From Chloroflexota bacterium (lineage in GTDB: Bacteria; Chloroflexota; Dehalococcoidia; Lucifugimonadales; UBA3495): a DNA stretch of 64,000 nucleotides. A program made the translations under genes and the position numbers. How positions within the stretch are numbered: the stretch's first letter is position 1; every line of letters starts with the position of its first letter. This document shows, piece by piece, positions 15,045 to 61,097 of this stretch. Under the pieces are notes generated by a model. That model was not told the DNA's origin, made no database searches, and worked only from the letters and a program-made list of their open reading frames with translations. Location of the stretch: positions 24,988 through 88,987 of the forward strand of contig JAPPGG010000047.1 in NCBI GenBank assembly GCA_028875055.1, written 5' to 3'.

Positions 15045-15947
15045 ATGCAGATAGGCGCTATTTTCCCTCAGACGGAAATCGGGTCTGACCCCGGGGCGAT
15101 CAGGGAGTATGCCCGGGCGGCGGAGGAACTGGGTTATTCCCACCTTTTTATTGCCGATCATGTACTGGGAGCCAGTTCGGACCACCATGCTCACGTTGCG
15201 GATGGCTACTACACCAACCGCAGCATCATCCACGAATCCTTTACCACCATGGGTTACCTGGCCGCAGTCACCCAGCGAATCGGGCTGACCACCGGCATTC
15301 TCATCCTGCCCCAGCGGGCCACCGCCCTGGTTGCCAAGCAGGCGGCGGCCGTGGACGTGCTGAGCGGCGGGCGGCTGAGGCTGGGCATCGGGGTTGGCTG
15401 GAACCACGTGGAATACGAGGCCCTGAACCGGAATTTCCGTGACCGGGGACGCCGCAGCGAGGAACAGATTGCCCTGATGCGGGAGCTTTGGACCAAAGAC
15501 GTGGTGGACTTCCACGGACGCTGGCACCGGGTGGACAACGCCGGGATCAATCCCCTGCCGGTGCAGCGGCCCATACCCGTGTGGCTGGGGGCCGGCAGCA
15601 GCGCCAGCCCGCTGCCTCCTGAACCGGTGCTGAAACGGATAGCCACCATATCCGACGGCTGGTTTCCCAACTTTGAGCCGGAACAACCGGGCCGCGAGGC
15701 CATAGACAAGCTCAGGGAGTACGTCCGCGCCTGCGGCCGGGACGAGTCTGCCGTGGGCATCGAGGGTCGCATCCGCATTGACGGCAAGCAACCTGAAGAC
15801 TGGGTGGACGAAGCCAACGCCTGGCAGGACCTGGGGGCCGTCAGCATTACCGTTGAGGCCCGGCGCGGCGGCCTCAGCGGCGTCGAGCAGCATATTGACG
15901 CCATAGTCCGGTTTCGGGAGGCATTGTCCGGTCTAGGCGACTGGTAG
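15045..15947 (+). CDS. LLM class F420-dependent-like oxidoreductase
   Basis: A 300-residue luciferase-like protein of the shorter, F420-dependent type (like those of actinobacteria). Landmarks are MQIGAIFPQTEIG at the start, LGYSHLFIADHVLG near residue 27, TGILILPQRATALVAKQAAAVDVLSGGRLRLGIGVGWNHVEYEAL, and PEPVLKRIATISDGWFP. The FMN versus F420 choice is inferred from length and the GVGW motif and is not certain. Its own terminator follows. Confidence 0.85.
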   Translation: MQIGAIFPQTEIGSDPGAIREYARAAEELGYSHLFIADHVLGASSDHHAHVADGYYTNRSIIHESFTTMGYLAAVTQRIGLTTGILILPQRATALVAKQAAAVDVLSGGRLRLGIGVGWNHVEYEALNRNFRDRGRRSEEQIALMRELWTKDVVDFHGRWHRVDNAGINPLPVQRPIPVWLGAGSSASPLPPEPVLKRIATISDGWFPNFEPEQPGREAIDKLREYVRACGRDESAVGIEGRIRIDGKQPEDWVDEANAWQDLGAVSITVEARRGGLSGVEQHIDAIVRFREALSGLGDW

Positions 15948-15995
15948 CCTCACCTGTTCCTGTCCTGTACCTTCAGGGCAGCGACGTCAATTGGG

Positions 15996-16030
15996 CGCAG
16001 GGGCGGTTGAATCCGCCCCTGCGTTTCCTT
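15996..16030 (+). terminator. Intrinsic terminator after the LLM gene
   Basis: GCAGGGGCGG (15997-16006) pairs with CCGCCCCTGC (16013-16022), then GTTTCCTTTT. Strong stem, moderately T-rich tail. Confidence 0.7.
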
Positions 16031-16160
16031 TTGCCGGTCAGCCGCCCGGCAGCTTTCTTCCGGAGCAATGCCATCGTAAGGGGACAGGGCCCTGTTCCCG
16101 TGGGCCAGCACGATGGAAATTACATTTCATGAAGAGATAATAAAATGCTTACAATATCTC

Positions 16161-16189
16161 TTGACAGGATACTGTCCCAGGTATATCAT
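16161..16189 (+). promoter_or_regulatory. Strong promoter of miniprotein unit 1
   Basis: TTGACA (16161-16166), 17 bases, TATCAT (16184-16189), in an AT-rich stretch unlike its surroundings. The spacer begins inside an inverted repeat, GACAG-GATA-CTGTC (16163-16176), which a repressor could use. Confidence 0.7.
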
Positions 16190-16211
16190 TACTTCAGATA
16201 TTAAAGTAGTT

Positions 16212-16224
16212 TTAGTATTACTAA
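16212..16224. promoter_or_regulatory. Palindrome TTAGTATTACTAA, possible operator
   Basis: A 13-base palindrome between the -10 box and the ribosome site of miniprotein 1. A similar AT-rich palindrome overlaps the second unit's -10 box. Suggests control by a dimeric repressor; no regulator gene is adjacent. Confidence 0.4.
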
Positions 16225-16246
16225 TTGCCCAAGGAGGTAAACGTTG

Positions 16247-16426
16247 ATGCAATTACACTTTCACGGCAGCGAAGGCAGCAACCAGGACGGGGTTCTTGAC
16301 CGCCTTAACCGGCGCCTGGGCAATGCCATTGAGTGGCTCTCCGGCCCGGCCATGTCCGAACAGGAGCGATTCGACCGGGTAAGGGCCGAGGTCCAGAGCG
16401 ACAAATACGGATACGGCATTCTCTAA
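16247..16426 (+). CDS. Small His-containing 'GPxM' protein 1, 59 aa
   Basis: I do not know this family. It is a 59-residue protein starting MQLHFHGSEGSN, with helix-prone LDRLNRRLGNAIEWLSGPAMSEQERFDRV and a C-terminus KYGYGIL. It shares the H-x-H-F-H start, the L(S/T)GP(A/G)M(S/T) core and the YGxG tail with the protein at 16921. ATG 16247 has an ideal AAGGAGG nine bases upstream (16231-16237). First gene of a two-gene unit with a strong promoter and terminator. Metal binding by the N-terminal His cluster is an inference from the His content and the adjacent copper ATPase. Confidence 0.7.
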   Translation: MQLHFHGSEGSNQDGVLDRLNRRLGNAIEWLSGPAMSEQERFDRVRAEVQSDKYGYGIL

Positions 16427-16464
16427 CCAGCAATCAACAAAAACAGAACAGGAGCACACAGACG

Positions 16465-16656
16465 TTGCTAGAACAGAAGACCAACGAAACTACCCTGGAA
16501 ACAACCACAATCCTTGAGCGTATTGCCCAGCAGATTCTAGTGGCTTACGCCTGGGTATCGGGTCCCGCGATGAGCGAGCAGGACCGCATCAAGGAGGAAC
16601 TGGCCAAGAGCCACAGGCTGGAAATGGAACTGGACTCCACTAGCATAGTCGGCTAG
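16465..16656 (+). CDS. Small 'GPxM' protein 2, 63 aa
   Basis: 63 residues starting at TTG 16465, with AGGAG ten bases upstream. The N-terminal half is polar and Thr-rich, then ILERIAQQILVAYAWVSGPAMSEQDR, so it carries the same VSGPAMSEQ core as its neighbour but no histidine cluster. It ends in STSIVG. It follows protein 1 by 38 bases and is followed at 32 bases by a perfect terminator. No function known. The shared core with proteins 1 and 3 argues that it is a real gene. Confidence 0.65.
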   Translation: MLEQKTNETTLETTTILERIAQQILVAYAWVSGPAMSEQDRIKEELAKSHRLEMELDSTSIVG

Positions 16657-16687
16657 TCCGCCTCTCCCCTCAGCACTGCTGATTTTC

Positions 16688-16729
16688 AGCGGGCTTCCCT
16701 GCTCATTGCAGGGAAGCCCGCTGTTTTTT
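16688..16729 (+). terminator. Perfect intrinsic terminator of miniprotein unit 1
   Basis: AGCGGGCTTCCCTGC (16688-16702) pairs perfectly over 15 bp with GCAGGGAAGCCCGCT (16708-16722), loop TCATT, then GTTTTTTC. Confidence 0.92.
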
Positions 16730-16856
16730 CTTCAGAGCTTGACCGGCTTGATTGAAGCCCCTGGGACTGCGCCGCGACTTGAGCTTGACATAGTGAATCC
16801 TTTCACAGTTGAGCTTGGTGAAAATAATCACATTGTTATGAACAGAGTTATTAGGC

Positions 16857-16889
16857 TTGACACGACTCATATCATAGTGTAATATTACA
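16857..16889 (+). promoter_or_regulatory. Promoter of miniprotein unit 2 with overlapping palindrome
   Basis: TTGACA (16857-16862), 17 bases, TAATAT (16880-16885). The perfect 12-base palindrome TGTAATATTACA (16878-16889) overlaps the -10 box, the position of a classical repressor site. Its shape recalls Fur/Zur-family boxes but does not match any consensus exactly. A further TTGACA at 16785 lacks a good -10. Confidence 0.65.
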
Positions 16890-16920
16890 ACTGTAAGAAC
16901 CAGCGGTACAGGAGGCCCAT

Positions 16921-17112
16921 ATGCATATTCATTTTCATTCCGGACACAACAGCGAGCACGGCCATCCCCACGGCGGGCCGTTCAGCAGGATTACCCGCGA
17001 CCTGGGATCGGCTCTGGACCGTTTGACGGGGCCGGGGATGACGGACCGGCAGCGGGCCAGTCGCCACCGGGCCGAGGCCAGGAACGAGAGGTACGGCAGC
17101 GGGTTGATGTAG
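16921..17112 (+). CDS. Small His-rich 'GPxM' protein 3, 63 aa
   Basis: 63 residues, paralogous to the protein at 16247. The first 18 residues, MHIHFHSGHNSEHGHPHG, hold eight histidines, then FSRITRDLGSALDRLTGPGMTDRQR and a tail ERYGSGLM. A His-rich N-terminus next to a copper ATPase suggests metal binding, but this is inference. ATG 16921 is preceded by AGGAGG (16911-16916, spacing four). First gene of unit 2. Confidence 0.72.
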   Translation: MHIHFHSGHNSEHGHPHGGPFSRITRDLGSALDRLTGPGMTDRQRASRHRAEARNERYGSGLM

Positions 17113-17189
17113 CCATATATTCCGAACGCCTGAATTCATCCAACACCAGGGCAAAGCTAGCGACCGATCGCTGAAACGGAGGTGACACC

Positions 17190-17384
17190 ATGGTAACTTT
17201 GGAAACGCGACAGAAAATCGAAGAATCCCACCAGGAGCTGGAAGAAAAGCTTACCCATCAGGTGTCGGAAATAATTGAGGCCTCCGAAACCGTCGAGGCA
17301 CAGGCCCCGGACCGCACACCTGCGGCGCCGGCCTGGAACTTTTCGATGCCATTTGCGGGAGTGCGGTACTATACCTACGACTAG
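17190..17384 (+). CDS. Small acidic coiled-coil protein 4, 64 aa
   Basis: 64 residues. The N-terminal half is an acidic helix (TRQKIEESHQELEEKLTHQVSEII), then Pro/Ala-rich linker and an aromatic end, GVRYYTYD. It lacks the GPxM core but occupies the same second position in unit 2 that protein 2 holds in unit 1. GGAGG stands nine bases before ATG 17190. The aromatic C-terminus is unusual for a chance frame. No known function. Confidence 0.6.
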   Translation: MVTLETRQKIEESHQELEEKLTHQVSEIIEASETVEAQAPDRTPAAPAWNFSMPFAGVRYYTYD

Positions 17385-17427
17385 ACCCAACACCCTCTCC
17401 TCTCCCTGAACCGTACCCCGCAACTCC

Positions 17428-17454
17428 GAAGCCCCCGGATTTTCCGGGGGCTTC
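17428..17454 (+). terminator. Hairpin after miniprotein unit 2
   Basis: GAAGCCCCCGGA (17428-17439) pairs perfectly with TCCGGGGGCTTC (17443-17454). The T-run is poor (CATTTG). Confidence 0.65.
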
Positions 17455-17509
17455 CATTTGTCCCCGGTATGCCCCCTGTCCCGCCGGAAGTCGTCTCCTC
17501 ACAACACAT

Positions 17510-17539
17510 CTGACCTCAAGCCCCCATCTGGCTTATAAT
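17510..17539 (+). promoter_or_regulatory. Possible promoter for copA
   Basis: TATAAT (17534-17539) with CTGACC (17510-17515) 18 bases upstream, 54 bases before the GTG start. It shares no palindrome with the two miniprotein promoters. Confidence 0.4.
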
Positions 17540-17593
17540 TGCGTTGAAATCATCAGCTTCAGGATACTGGCTAACTGACCGGCGTGGCTTACA

Positions 17594-20140
17594 GTGAAAG
17601 ACGACGTGACAAATTCCCTCGACATTTCCCTGCCGATAAGGGGCATGACCTGCGCCGCCTGCGTGATGCACGTGGAGCACGCCCTGCAGGAGACCCCCGG
17701 AGTTTTGGCGGCTACCGTGAACCTGGCTACCGAGCGAGCGACGATCTCCCTCGAACCCGGGGAATTGCCCCTGGACAAGTTGCGGCATTCAGTGGCCGAC
17801 GCGGGGTACGAAATAGATACTACCGAAACCACCCTGACCGTGGGGGGTATGACCTGCACGGCCTGCGTCAGCCACGTTGAGCATGCCTTGCGGTCGGTCA
17901 ACGGAGTTCTGGACGCTTCCGTCAACCTGGCCACCGAGCGGGCGCGGGTCAACTACGTGCCTGGGCTGGCTGGCATCGCCGAATTTCGGGAATCCCTGGA
18001 GGACAGCGGCTATCGGCTGGACGGGGTGGAAGGCGATGCCCGGGACAATGCGGCGGAACTGGAGAGGCTGGCCCGTACCGAGGAAGTAAGGTACTTCCGC
18101 AATCGGTGCGCGTTCGCCGTAACCGCCGGAGTTATTCTCCTGCTGGGTTCAATGCACGCGCTACCCTGGGTCGGCTTTCTGGACGGCCTGCGACTGGGCA
18201 ACTGGACCGTCTGGCCCTGGGCGCTGTGGCTCCTGGCCACGCCGGTCCAGTTCTGGGCCGGGTGGCCCTTCTACACCTCGGGAATCCCCGCCTTGCGACA
18301 CGGGACCGCCAACATGCACACCCTGGTGGCCCTGGGGTCCACGGTGGCTTATGGATACAGCGCCGGCATCACGCTGCTTTCGGCCTTCGCCCCGGCGTGG
18401 GTCGCCGAGCGGGGCATAGGCAGCGGGGTCTATTTCGATACGGCGGCGCTGATTATCGGGCTTATCCTGCTGGGTCGGTTCCTGGAAGCCCGGGCACGGG
18501 GCCGAACCTCGGAGGCTATCCGCCGCCTTATCGGTTTGCAGCCCAGCACGGCCACGGTGGTGCGGGAGGGCGGCGAAGTGGTGATACCGGTGGACGAACT
18601 TATCCTGGACGACATCGTGGCAGTCCGGCCCGGGGAGCGGGTGCCCACCGACGGCGAGGTTGTTGAGGGCGCTTCGACGGTGGACGAGTCCATGCTGACG
18701 GGAGAGAGCATGCCGGTGGACAAGGAACCGGGTCAGCCCGTCTATGGCGCCACCCTCAACCGGACCGGCTACTTCCGGTTCCGGGTCACCAGGCTGGGCC
18801 AGGAGACGGCGCTTTCCCAGATTATTCGCATGGTGGAAGAGGCCCAGGGTTCCAGGGCGCCGATTCAGCGACTGGCGGACAAGGTTGCATCGGTCTTTGT
18901 GCCTGCTGTCGGAGCGGTGGCGGTGGCGGCCTTCCTTTTCTGGCTGGTCCTGGGCCCGGCGCCGGCCCTGTCCTACGCCGTGCTTACCCTGGTGGCGGTG
19001 CTGATTATCGCCTGCCCCTGCGCGCTGGGCCTGGCCACGCCCACCGCAATTATTGTAGGTACGGGCAAGGGCGCGGAAAGGGGTATTCTCATTCGCAGCG
19101 CCCAGACCCTGGAGACCTCCCACCGGGTGGACACGGTGGTCCTGGACAAGACCGGAACTCTCACCCAGGGCAGGCCCGTGGTGACGGACCTGATTCCGGA
19201 CAGGAGAAACGGGTCGGCCACTGAGACGGAACTCCTGAGGCTGGCCGGGGGCCTGGAACACGGTTCCGAGCACCCCCTGGCTATCGCCATTACGGAGGAT
19301 ACGGAGCGTCGGGGGATTGTTCCGGCGGAAGTATCCGGTTTTGAGGCGCTGCCCGGGCAGGGGGTGACGGGAAGATCTGATGAGGGTCAGCTGCTGCTGG
19401 GCAGCCCGGCTTTCCTGGAAGGGCAGGGGATAGACCTGGACAACCTTTCGGCTGACCTGGCCCGCCTGTCCACGGAAGGCAAGACGCCGGTGGCGCTGGC
19501 GGTAAACGGGTCGGCCCTGGGGGCCATCGGCCTGGCGGACGCGCCCAAAAATGATGCCAGGGCCTCGGTGGCGCAATTGCGGGAACTGGGGTTAGAGGTG
19601 GTAATGCTGACGGGCGACAACCACCGGACGGCCCGACACGTTGCCGACAGCCTGGGCATTTCAAGGGTCGAGGCGGAAACGCTGCCCGGGGAGAAGGTGG
19701 AAGTTATCCGGCGACTGCAGGCGGAAGGGCGTTCGGTGGCCATGGTGGGGGACGGCATCAACGACGCGCCGGCCCTGGCGCAGGCCGACGTGGGACTTGC
19801 CATGGGGGCGGGGACCGATGTGGCGATGGAGTCGGCGGACATAACGCTGATGGGCAACGACGTGGGCAGCGTCATAACGGCCCTGCGCCTGAGCCGGCAG
19901 ACCATGCGGGCCATCAAGCAGAACCTGTTCTGGGCCTTCTTCTACAACGTGCTGCTGATTCCGGTGGCGGCGGGAATTCTGTACCCAGTGTTCGCGGCGC
20001 TGGGGGGCGTTCCCGCGAGCCTGGAGTTCTTCTTTGGAGACCAGGGATTCCTGAATCCGGTGCTGGCGGCCATGGCCATGGCCTTCAGTTCAGTGACGGT
20101 AGTGAGCAACTCGCTGCGGTTGAGGAAGGCGGAGGTGTAG
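17594..20140 (+). CDS. copA: Copper-translocating P-type ATPase
   Basis: An 848-residue heavy-metal P1B-ATPase that exports Cu(I). Two N-terminal HMA domains carry CxxC at C20/C23 (GMTCAAC) and C88/C91 (GMTCTAC). Eight membrane helices include the transport motif CPC at 474-476. The catalytic Asp is D518 in DKTGTLT; the nucleotide site is SEHPLA and the hinge motif [11 protein letters not shown], with the HMA pair, indicates Cu(I)/Ag(I). Start is GTG 17594. No CsoR/CueR regulator adjoins; the His-rich miniprotein units lie immediately upstream. Confidence 0.93.
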
Positions 20141-33392: not shown

Positions 33393-33421
33393 TTGACACC
33401 CCCTAAAGACTGTGATAATTT
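33393..33421 (+). promoter_or_regulatory. Promoter of the act operon
   Basis: TTGACA (33393-33398), 17 bases, TAATTT (33416-33421); a GATAAT overlapping it gives a 15-base alternative. About 76 bases ahead of the first gene. Confidence 0.6.
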
Positions 33422-33496
33422 TCACTAGGTTTGCTACCCGGGGAGGTTCAGGATACGCCCCGGAATCGAATCAGGGTATTTTCCAAGGCAGGACCG

Positions 33497-33793: not shown

Positions 33794-33917
33794 TTTCAGG
33801 ATGCGGCCGGTACGGGAACGCATCCTTTCTAACATTGAAGAATCTTCCCGGACTGGCCGGTCTTCAGCCGGATGACAGTCCGGCCGGATACTAAGAGATA
33901 GGCAGGTTTTGGCGCCG

Positions 33918-34586
33918 ATGAGGCCAAGCGCAAATATCATTCCACTGGCCATTGTAGGTTTGGTCGTCACCGGCATCGTCGGGTTCCTGGTCGCAATAAT
34001 CTTTATATCCTGGTTTTCTAACCCGCCGTTCGGGCTGGGCAACGCCCCGGCGCAACCCATTGATTTCCCCCATACCGTCCATGCCGGTTCCGTAGAGGAA
34101 GGCGGCGTGGGCATTGCCTGCGAGTTCTGCCACCGCAATGTGACCGAAGGCGCGGCGGCAACAGTGCCCGCGGTGGAACAGTGCGTTTTCTGCCACCAGC
34201 AGATCAATCCGGAGAACCTGGTGGCCTCGGCCTCGTCCAGCGCGGACCAGGCCCAGATGCAGCTGGTGGTGGACAAGTTTAACGACAACGACCCCATCAA
34301 CTGGGAGCGGGTGCACCGGATACCGGACCACGTGAGGTTTGTGCATGAAGCCCACATCCGGTTCCTGACGGAGGGTCAGCCGCGAACGGTAGCCATGCCC
34401 ATGGGAGACGGACAACCCCGTCAGTTGCCTTTGACCAACCAGCAGGCCTGTTCGGTCTGTCACGGGGATGTGGCCAGCATGAACGAAGTCCAGCCCACGG
34501 GCGGGCAGTCGCTGAAGATGGGCACCTGCGTGGACTGTCACCGAGAGCTTAACGTGGGCACCGACTGTACTATCTGTCACAAGTAA
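33918..34586 (+). CDS. actA: Alternative complex III subunit ActA, pentaheme cytochrome c
   Basis: A 222-residue membrane-anchored multiheme cytochrome: one N-terminal helix (IIPLAIVGLVVTGIVGFLVAIIF), then five CxxCH heme sites (CEFCH, CVFCH, CSVCH, CVDCH, CTICH). Five hemes and a single anchor match ActA, which passes electrons within alternative complex III, a quinol:cytochrome c oxidoreductase. Start is ATG 33918; TTG 33909 is three residues longer. Distal heme ligands are probably the nearby His residues (HTVH, HEAH). Confidence 0.85.
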   Translation: MRPSANIIPLAIVGLVVTGIVGFLVAIIFISWFSNPPFGLGNAPAQPIDFPHTVHAGSVEEGGVGIACEFCHRNVTEGAAATVPAVEQCVFCHQQINPENLVASASSSADQAQMQLVVDKFNDNDPINWERVHRIPDHVRFVHEAHIRFLTEGQPRTVAMPMGDGQPRQLPLTNQQACSVCHGDVASMNEVQPTGGQSLKMGTCVDCHRELNVGTDCTICHK

Positions 34587-60680: not shown

Positions 60681-60854
60681 AATTGCAGGTTACCTCACTA
60701 GGATTTAGGACATATAATACATCGATATAAAATATTATACAATATCGCTTGACAAAATACTAATATCTATTGAGAATTAGGAACGCCTGTGTAAGCCGGA
60801 CAGACCAATAATGATGCACATCTTTGCCTCTGGGTATGAGGAGGGACAGGGCTA
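60681..60854. promoter_or_regulatory. AT-rich divergent promoter region (LysR/ferredoxin)
   Basis: Plus strand: TTGACA (60749-60754), 17 bases, GAGAAT, ahead of the ferredoxin. Minus strand: TATAAT in ATTGTATAATATTTT ahead of the LysR gene. The region is markedly AT-rich, and binding sites for the LysR protein are to be expected here, though none was pinned down. Confidence 0.5.
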
Positions 60855-61097
60855 ATGGCTTTCGTTATTACCGAACCCTGTATCGGGGTCAAAGATGCTT
60901 CCTGTGTTGAAGTGTGTCCCGTGGACTGCATACACACGGACGACGAGGAGGAGATGTACTTCATCAATCCCGATGACTGCATCGACTGCGCCTATTGCGA
61001 GTCCGCCTGCCCGGTAAATGCCATATTTGACGAATTTACGGTTCCCGCCAAGTTCCGGGAATATACCCAGAAGAACCGGGCCTTCTACCGCAAGTAA
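60855..61097 (+). CDS. 7Fe-type ferredoxin
   Basis: 80 residues of the FdxA-type ferredoxin: CIGVKDASCVEVCPVDC in the first part, with CIDCAYCESACPVNAI in the second. The first motif has the spacing of a [3Fe-4S]/[4Fe-4S] seven-iron ferredoxin. Such proteins feed electrons to the siroheme reductase or to P450/other enzymes, so the reductase at 6.7 kb is a possible partner. It is divergent from a LysR gene. Confidence 0.92.
   Translation: MAFVITEPCIGVKDASCVEVCPVDCIHTDDEEEMYFINPDDCIDCAYCESACPVNAIFDEFTVPAKFREYTQKNRAFYRK

Follow-up and report, generated by a model that had tools for sequence, protein, structure and literature searches.

Two pairs of small genes lie directly upstream of copA in the genome of a Chloroflexota bacterium, and the question raised by this locus is what such genes do and whether the metal gene beside them is a guide to their function. 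They were studied in a stretch of 64,000 nucleotides, here called the window. The genes represent two small-protein families new to the searched databases, and DNA switches together with the relatives of these proteins appear to tie the second pair to the heat-shock system, not to copper. SAR202 bacteria occur in large numbers both in the deep ocean and in sponges. To our knowledge they are largely uncultured and their stress response is little described. The public records behind the loci compared here are Chloroflexota, SAR202 and Dehalococcoidia MAGs; from the bin names we read a sponge origin for them.

All features of the locus are on the forward strand unless stated otherwise. Unit 1 starts from a promoter TTGACA-17-TATCAT (16161..16189), kept in 22 relatives, and contains gene a (16247..16426; 59 aa, ATG start, RBS AAGGAGG at 16231, N-terminus with histidines) and gene b (16465..16656; 63 aa, weaker SD, no His-rich N-terminus), followed by an intrinsic terminator of 16 pairs (16687..16723). 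Unit 2 has a promoter TTGACA-17-TAATAT (16857..16885), gene c (16921..17112; 63 aa, His-rich N-terminus), gene D (17190..17384; 64 aa, a helix and then a C-terminal beta-hairpin motif) and a closing GC hairpin (17429..17453). Both promoters are sigma-70-like, and six promoter-like sites were found against 0.9 expected in shuffles. The copA gene (17594..20140), encoding a P-type ATPase with two HMA domains and an E1-E2 ATPase domain, begins 209 bp after gene D. A preliminary description of this locus was borne out in most structural points: the four intact frames of 59-64 aa in two bicistrons, the promoters at 16161 and 16857, the strong SD of the first gene in each unit (a and c), and CopA with two HMA domains within 210 bases. 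The paralogy of a and c and the repetition of their core in b were likewise recovered, a, b and c being mutually homologous. Two points needed amendment, as the T tract after the unit-2 hairpin is weak and gene b, though intact, has TTG as its start codon. Rfam gave no match within 15900-17700.

The four genes are real and conserved. At E <= 0.001, gene a had relatives in 9 of the 59 genomes searched, with the best match (6e-26) in another species; gene D had relatives in 21 of the 59 related genomes. All four genes had dN/dS values of 0.15-0.49 (Nei-Gojobori, NG86), well below 1 and indicative of purifying selection, and relative to the copies in G003 only 3 changes, all synonymous, were seen in 744 coding bases. 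Small frames are easily misjudged, but homologues in about 40 (GPxM family) and 50 (GVRYY family) genomes, these dN/dS values and the conserved promoters refute a reading as chance frames, which retains next to no probability. The duplicated small-protein system that had been proposed is thus a real one by homology and selection, and two of the conditions named beforehand as refuting it, a lack of homologues and a dN/dS near 1, turned out in its favour. The G003 contig (L017), compared with window positions 16013-16250, was near-identical from gene a through copA and diverged upstream of the unit-1 coding region, a pattern suggestive of either recombination or strongly constrained coding sequence.

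Genes a, b and c belong to one family, GPxM, named after its core. Of 250 genomes of the order, 44 contained GPxM genes by profile search. Family f1, to which the window belongs, accounted for 42 of these (out of 50 f1 members listed), and the remainder were G043 and a weak match in G099. The GPxM gene of G218 was missed by the profile and recovered through its promoter, the motif being present. A class-wide search of 393 genomes gave no further GPxM except in two f1 members, and the family is almost confined to a single SAR202 Chloroflexota family. The proteins are 44-110 aa long with an N-terminus variable in length and composition, His-rich in some genera only. The conserved part is made up of the C-terminal ~42 residues, helix-SGPxM(S/T)-helix, with the consensus YDWLSGPxM(S/T)ExxR in which G and P never vary and R rarely does. 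A model of gene a places helices at residues 11-31 and 39-55 around the SGPAMS turn, at low confidence (pLDDT 59). Genes a and b occur as a pair in G000-G004 and in G007. The GPxM gene has a GlcD-like oxidase, cysS, ispD/ispF and a hydroxyacid dehydrogenase as neighbours in most genera, in the order ispD-ispF-cysS-glcD-like-[GPxM]-hydroxyacid dehydrogenase in the other f1 genera; in the window's genus and in G007 it is flanked by Gfo/Idh- and aldo-keto-type genes and secA.

Gene D belongs to a separate and wider family, GVRYY, whose ties to heat-shock loci had gone unnoticed in the preliminary description. Relatives at 38-56% identity were present in G001, G004 and G007. More distant ones, spread over several families, turned up in 50 of 247 genomes from the order, and a sample of 399 further genomes of the phylum contained none. 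They share a C-terminal element W.Y(S/G).P.AGVRYY(S/T)(Y/F), with GVRY invariant in the aligned set and varying in single members outside it. The C-terminal end of gene D was modelled by AlphaFold2 as a beta-hairpin with pLDDT of about 87-93, the only confident part of the model, and Foldseek gave no significant match for it. Outside the window's genus, GVRYY genes adjoin Hsp20, HspR, DnaJ and ClpB genes in the genera g3, g6, g7, g13 and g16, and an HspR gene in family f6; the neighbouring Hsp20, DnaJ and MerR-type HspR were confirmed by Pfam. In other groups the neighbours are UspA or NarL-type regulators, and many of the fetched loci, e.g. those of g2 and f33, contained no heat-shock gene.

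The supposition that these proteins belong to no known family held: neither GPxM nor GVRYY had a match above the curated cut-off in Pfam or NCBIfam, PDB sequences were negative, and PHROGs, queried with GPxM, gave no match. Weak matches to HU-HIG (0.1), YtxH (0.063) and a bleomycin-binding protein (1.2) were at chance level and were rejected. In the literature no paper on these proteins was found. The suggestion of a modified peptide fared worse. Ribosomally made and modified precursors (RiPPs) might be expected from the small size, the paralogues and the strongly conserved short motifs; the conservation, however, lies at the C-terminus and the N-terminus varies, which is the opposite of a leader-core plan, no RiPP family match reached the cut-off, and among the recurrent neighbours of both families, which are annotated in part, no modification enzyme or exporter was recognised. 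We consider RiPP-like precursors very improbable.

Metal buffering or a copper chaperone had also been suggested, in which case the His-rich GPxM proteins would be Cu- or Zn-binding and would either supply the neighbouring CopA or protect it. Gene c has 7 His within its first 22 residues, several occur in gene a, and the proximity of copA is kept within the genus (window, L017, L019 and L021). No copA was found beside GPxM in other genera, however, and the DKTGT motif of P-type ATPases was not found in the fetched sister-genus locus L020. The adjacency of copA and GPxM is thus limited to the genus of the window, and a copper role loses its main support; the core recurs in relatives, but not beside copA outside this genus. 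Across the family the number of N-terminal His ranges from 0 to 7, with few or none in the genera g2, g7, g9, g10 and g13, Cys is almost absent and nowhere conserved, and conserved metal ligands were not found. Genes b and D are without His-rich segments, and a terminator-like hairpin separates D from copA. As a family function the metal role was rejected, both the CopA adjacency and the His content being lineage-specific. Metal buffering or copper chaperoning is improbable overall and could be a secondary role in the window's genus; copA is probably a neighbour and not part of the small-protein system.

The promoter regions led in another direction. The unit-2 promoter TTGACACGACTCATATCA is a member of a rare motif, TTGACAC-N6-TATCA, which had 17 exact matches in 14 genomes and none in the reversed control. 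These sites were located upstream of unit 2 in G000-G003 and of GVRYY genes in G007, G013, G016, G019, G026, G104 and G197, as well as ahead of the hspR and dnaK operons (hspR-grpE-dnaK) in G016, G026 and G197; a few preceded other genes, e.g. in L279. In such promoters the motif makes up a HAIR-like repeat, CTTGA-N11-TCAAG; for comparison, HAIR has the published consensus CTTGAGT-N7-ACTCAAG (PMC6102357). In the window the inverted repeat CTTGACACGACTCATATCATA (16856..16876) overlaps the unit-2 -35 box and is a candidate HspR operator; it agrees in 8/10 arm positions, with TCATA for TCAAG in the right arm, a level that 7% of random 180-bp windows also attain. Ahead of hspR-dnaK and of dnaJ-hspR-clpB, the genome of the window itself has repeats of this kind. 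It encodes two proteins resembling HspR, for which HspR is the best match in NCBIfam at 96.4 bits, slightly under the cut-off of 105. Gene e of G004 is without a HAIR-like repeat, and the operator of unit 1 differs from that of unit 2. Further upstream of unit 2, two CRP/FNR-type sites GTGA-N6-TCAC (16793..16806 and 16818..16831, strand unassigned) lie 25 bp apart in G000-G003 and are conserved in G001-G003; about 1% of random 180-bp windows contain sites of this type. A third GTGA-N6-TCAC site is found at 33412-33425, just before an ORF at 33431 and near a multi-CXXCH (multihaem) ORF at 33909-34586, and is a possible CRP/FNR target.

GPxM genes have a promoter of their own. In 22 of these promoters from 15 genera the common sequence was AATATCtcTTGACa.gATAct, then TATcAT at 17 bp, and the pattern, with <=2 mismatches allowed, was present in 33 of 50 family genomes and 12 of 197 others (reversed control in 3 genomes). 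It includes an AATATC..TTGACA.GATA element, within which the unit-1 -35 box is surrounded by a TATC-N9-GATA inverted repeat (16155..16171), a putative operator resembling the LysR-type ATC-N9-GAT site. A near-match to the unit-1 promoter, CAATATCGCTTGACAAAATACT, forms the promoter context of ferredoxin (Fer4, 60855-61097), next to which lies a divergent LysR-type gene (window 60742-61097), and is conserved in G001, G002, G004, G007 and G013. By eye, many GPxM 5' UTRs (L018, L019, L021, L066, L070 and others) have small hairpins with an AGTATT-like loop between the promoter and the RBS.

The GPxM proteins could be seen as small proteins linked to growth or redox state and expressed along with ferredoxin, outside the heat-shock system, unit 2 being one copy recruited late to the HspR regulon. 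The sequence TACAATATCnCTTGACAnnATACT is common to the conserved GPxM promoter and the ferredoxin promoter of the same genome, a short motif marks mainly GPxM and ferredoxin promoters in several genomes, and the ancestral neighbourhood has the GlcD-like oxidase and the hydroxyacid dehydrogenase. The common -35 context may, however, just reflect strong promoters, and the neighbours need not be functional partners because GPxM has its own promoter. GPxM moreover clusters with GVRYY in two genera, which suggests a link to stress. We regard this growth- or redox-linked role as a possible, if rather unlikely, explanation of the family.

The reading we prefer, with a probability of roughly 0.5, is that two lineage-specific families serve the stress response of the SAR202 order, unit 2 being repressed by HspR and its proteins acting as proteostasis accessories. 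From the operators and the neighbours of its relatives we place unit 2 within the HspR regulon, with GPxM as a companion small protein. HspR would repress unit 2 (GPxM-c and GVRYY-D) at the HAIR-like operator overlapping the -35 box, and a CRP/FNR-family protein would probably modulate it through the two upstream sites. Unfolded proteins would titrate the chaperones, HspR would leave its operator, and the pair would be made together with DnaK, ClpB and Hsp20. Unit 1 (GPxM-a and -b) would be a duplicate of an ancestral single-copy GPxM gene, keeping the conserved promoter of that gene. The proteins would most likely act in protein quality control as accessory factors that are small and partly disordered. 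Their conserved C-termini (the beta-hairpin P.AGVRYY and the helix-GPxM-helix) would dock onto a partner, and the fast-evolving N-terminus may tune client or ion binding; the biochemical role would probably be one accessory to proteostasis. The analysis drew on sequence throughout: its findings are the genes and their two families, the selection on them, the operator-like sites and the neighbourhoods, from which HspR and CRP binding, induction and docking are inferred. For GPxM the stress link is drawn from unit 2 in one genus and, in a second genus, from its clustering with D. Apart from unit 2 and the G007 cluster, GPxM genes do not lie in heat-shock loci, and the single-copy ones may have a different job. 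A doubtful extension of this proposal would make the two families one shared module of the HspR regulon, specific to the order, in which the GVRYY and GPxM proteins bind one another or a chaperone and represent an accessory chaperone of a new type.

The proposed arrangement resembles the HspR/HAIR regulon of Streptomyces and Helicobacter in the HAIR-like repeat overlapping the promoter, found here also with the hspR-dnaK and clpB operons; the known members of that regulon are chaperones and proteases, whereas here two uncatalogued small-protein families seem to have been added (PMC6102357). Ruc (Rv0991c of Mycobacterium tuberculosis), a small redox-regulated chaperone co-regulated with Hsp genes, is likewise small and partly disordered and sits in chaperone loci, those of Chloroflexi included (PMC7448276). 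It has, however, a zinc-coordinating N-terminal domain with four Cys (PMC7448276), while GPxM is almost without Cys, gene D of the window has none and GVRYY lacks such a domain; Ruc may be the nearest functional analogue at most, and is not a sequence relative. Genes for small heat-shock proteins of the Hsp20/alpha-crystallin type (PF00011) lie immediately beside GVRYY genes in five genera or more, but the alpha-crystallin domain is absent from GPxM and GVRYY.

Recurrent and very specific operator-like sites together with two uncatalogued families provide a sequence-defined handle on the SAR202 stress regulon, and the families are testable as small proteostasis factors beyond the usual Hsp70/Hsp20 cast. 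The locus also teaches that adjacency to a metal gene and a run of histidines can mislead when a single genome is read.

Finally, the genomes of genus g2 (L201, L202 and L217) carry two tandem GVRYY genes with differing promoters, one of which has TTATC-N9-GATAA around its -10 box, reminiscent of the GPxM TATC-N9-GATA.
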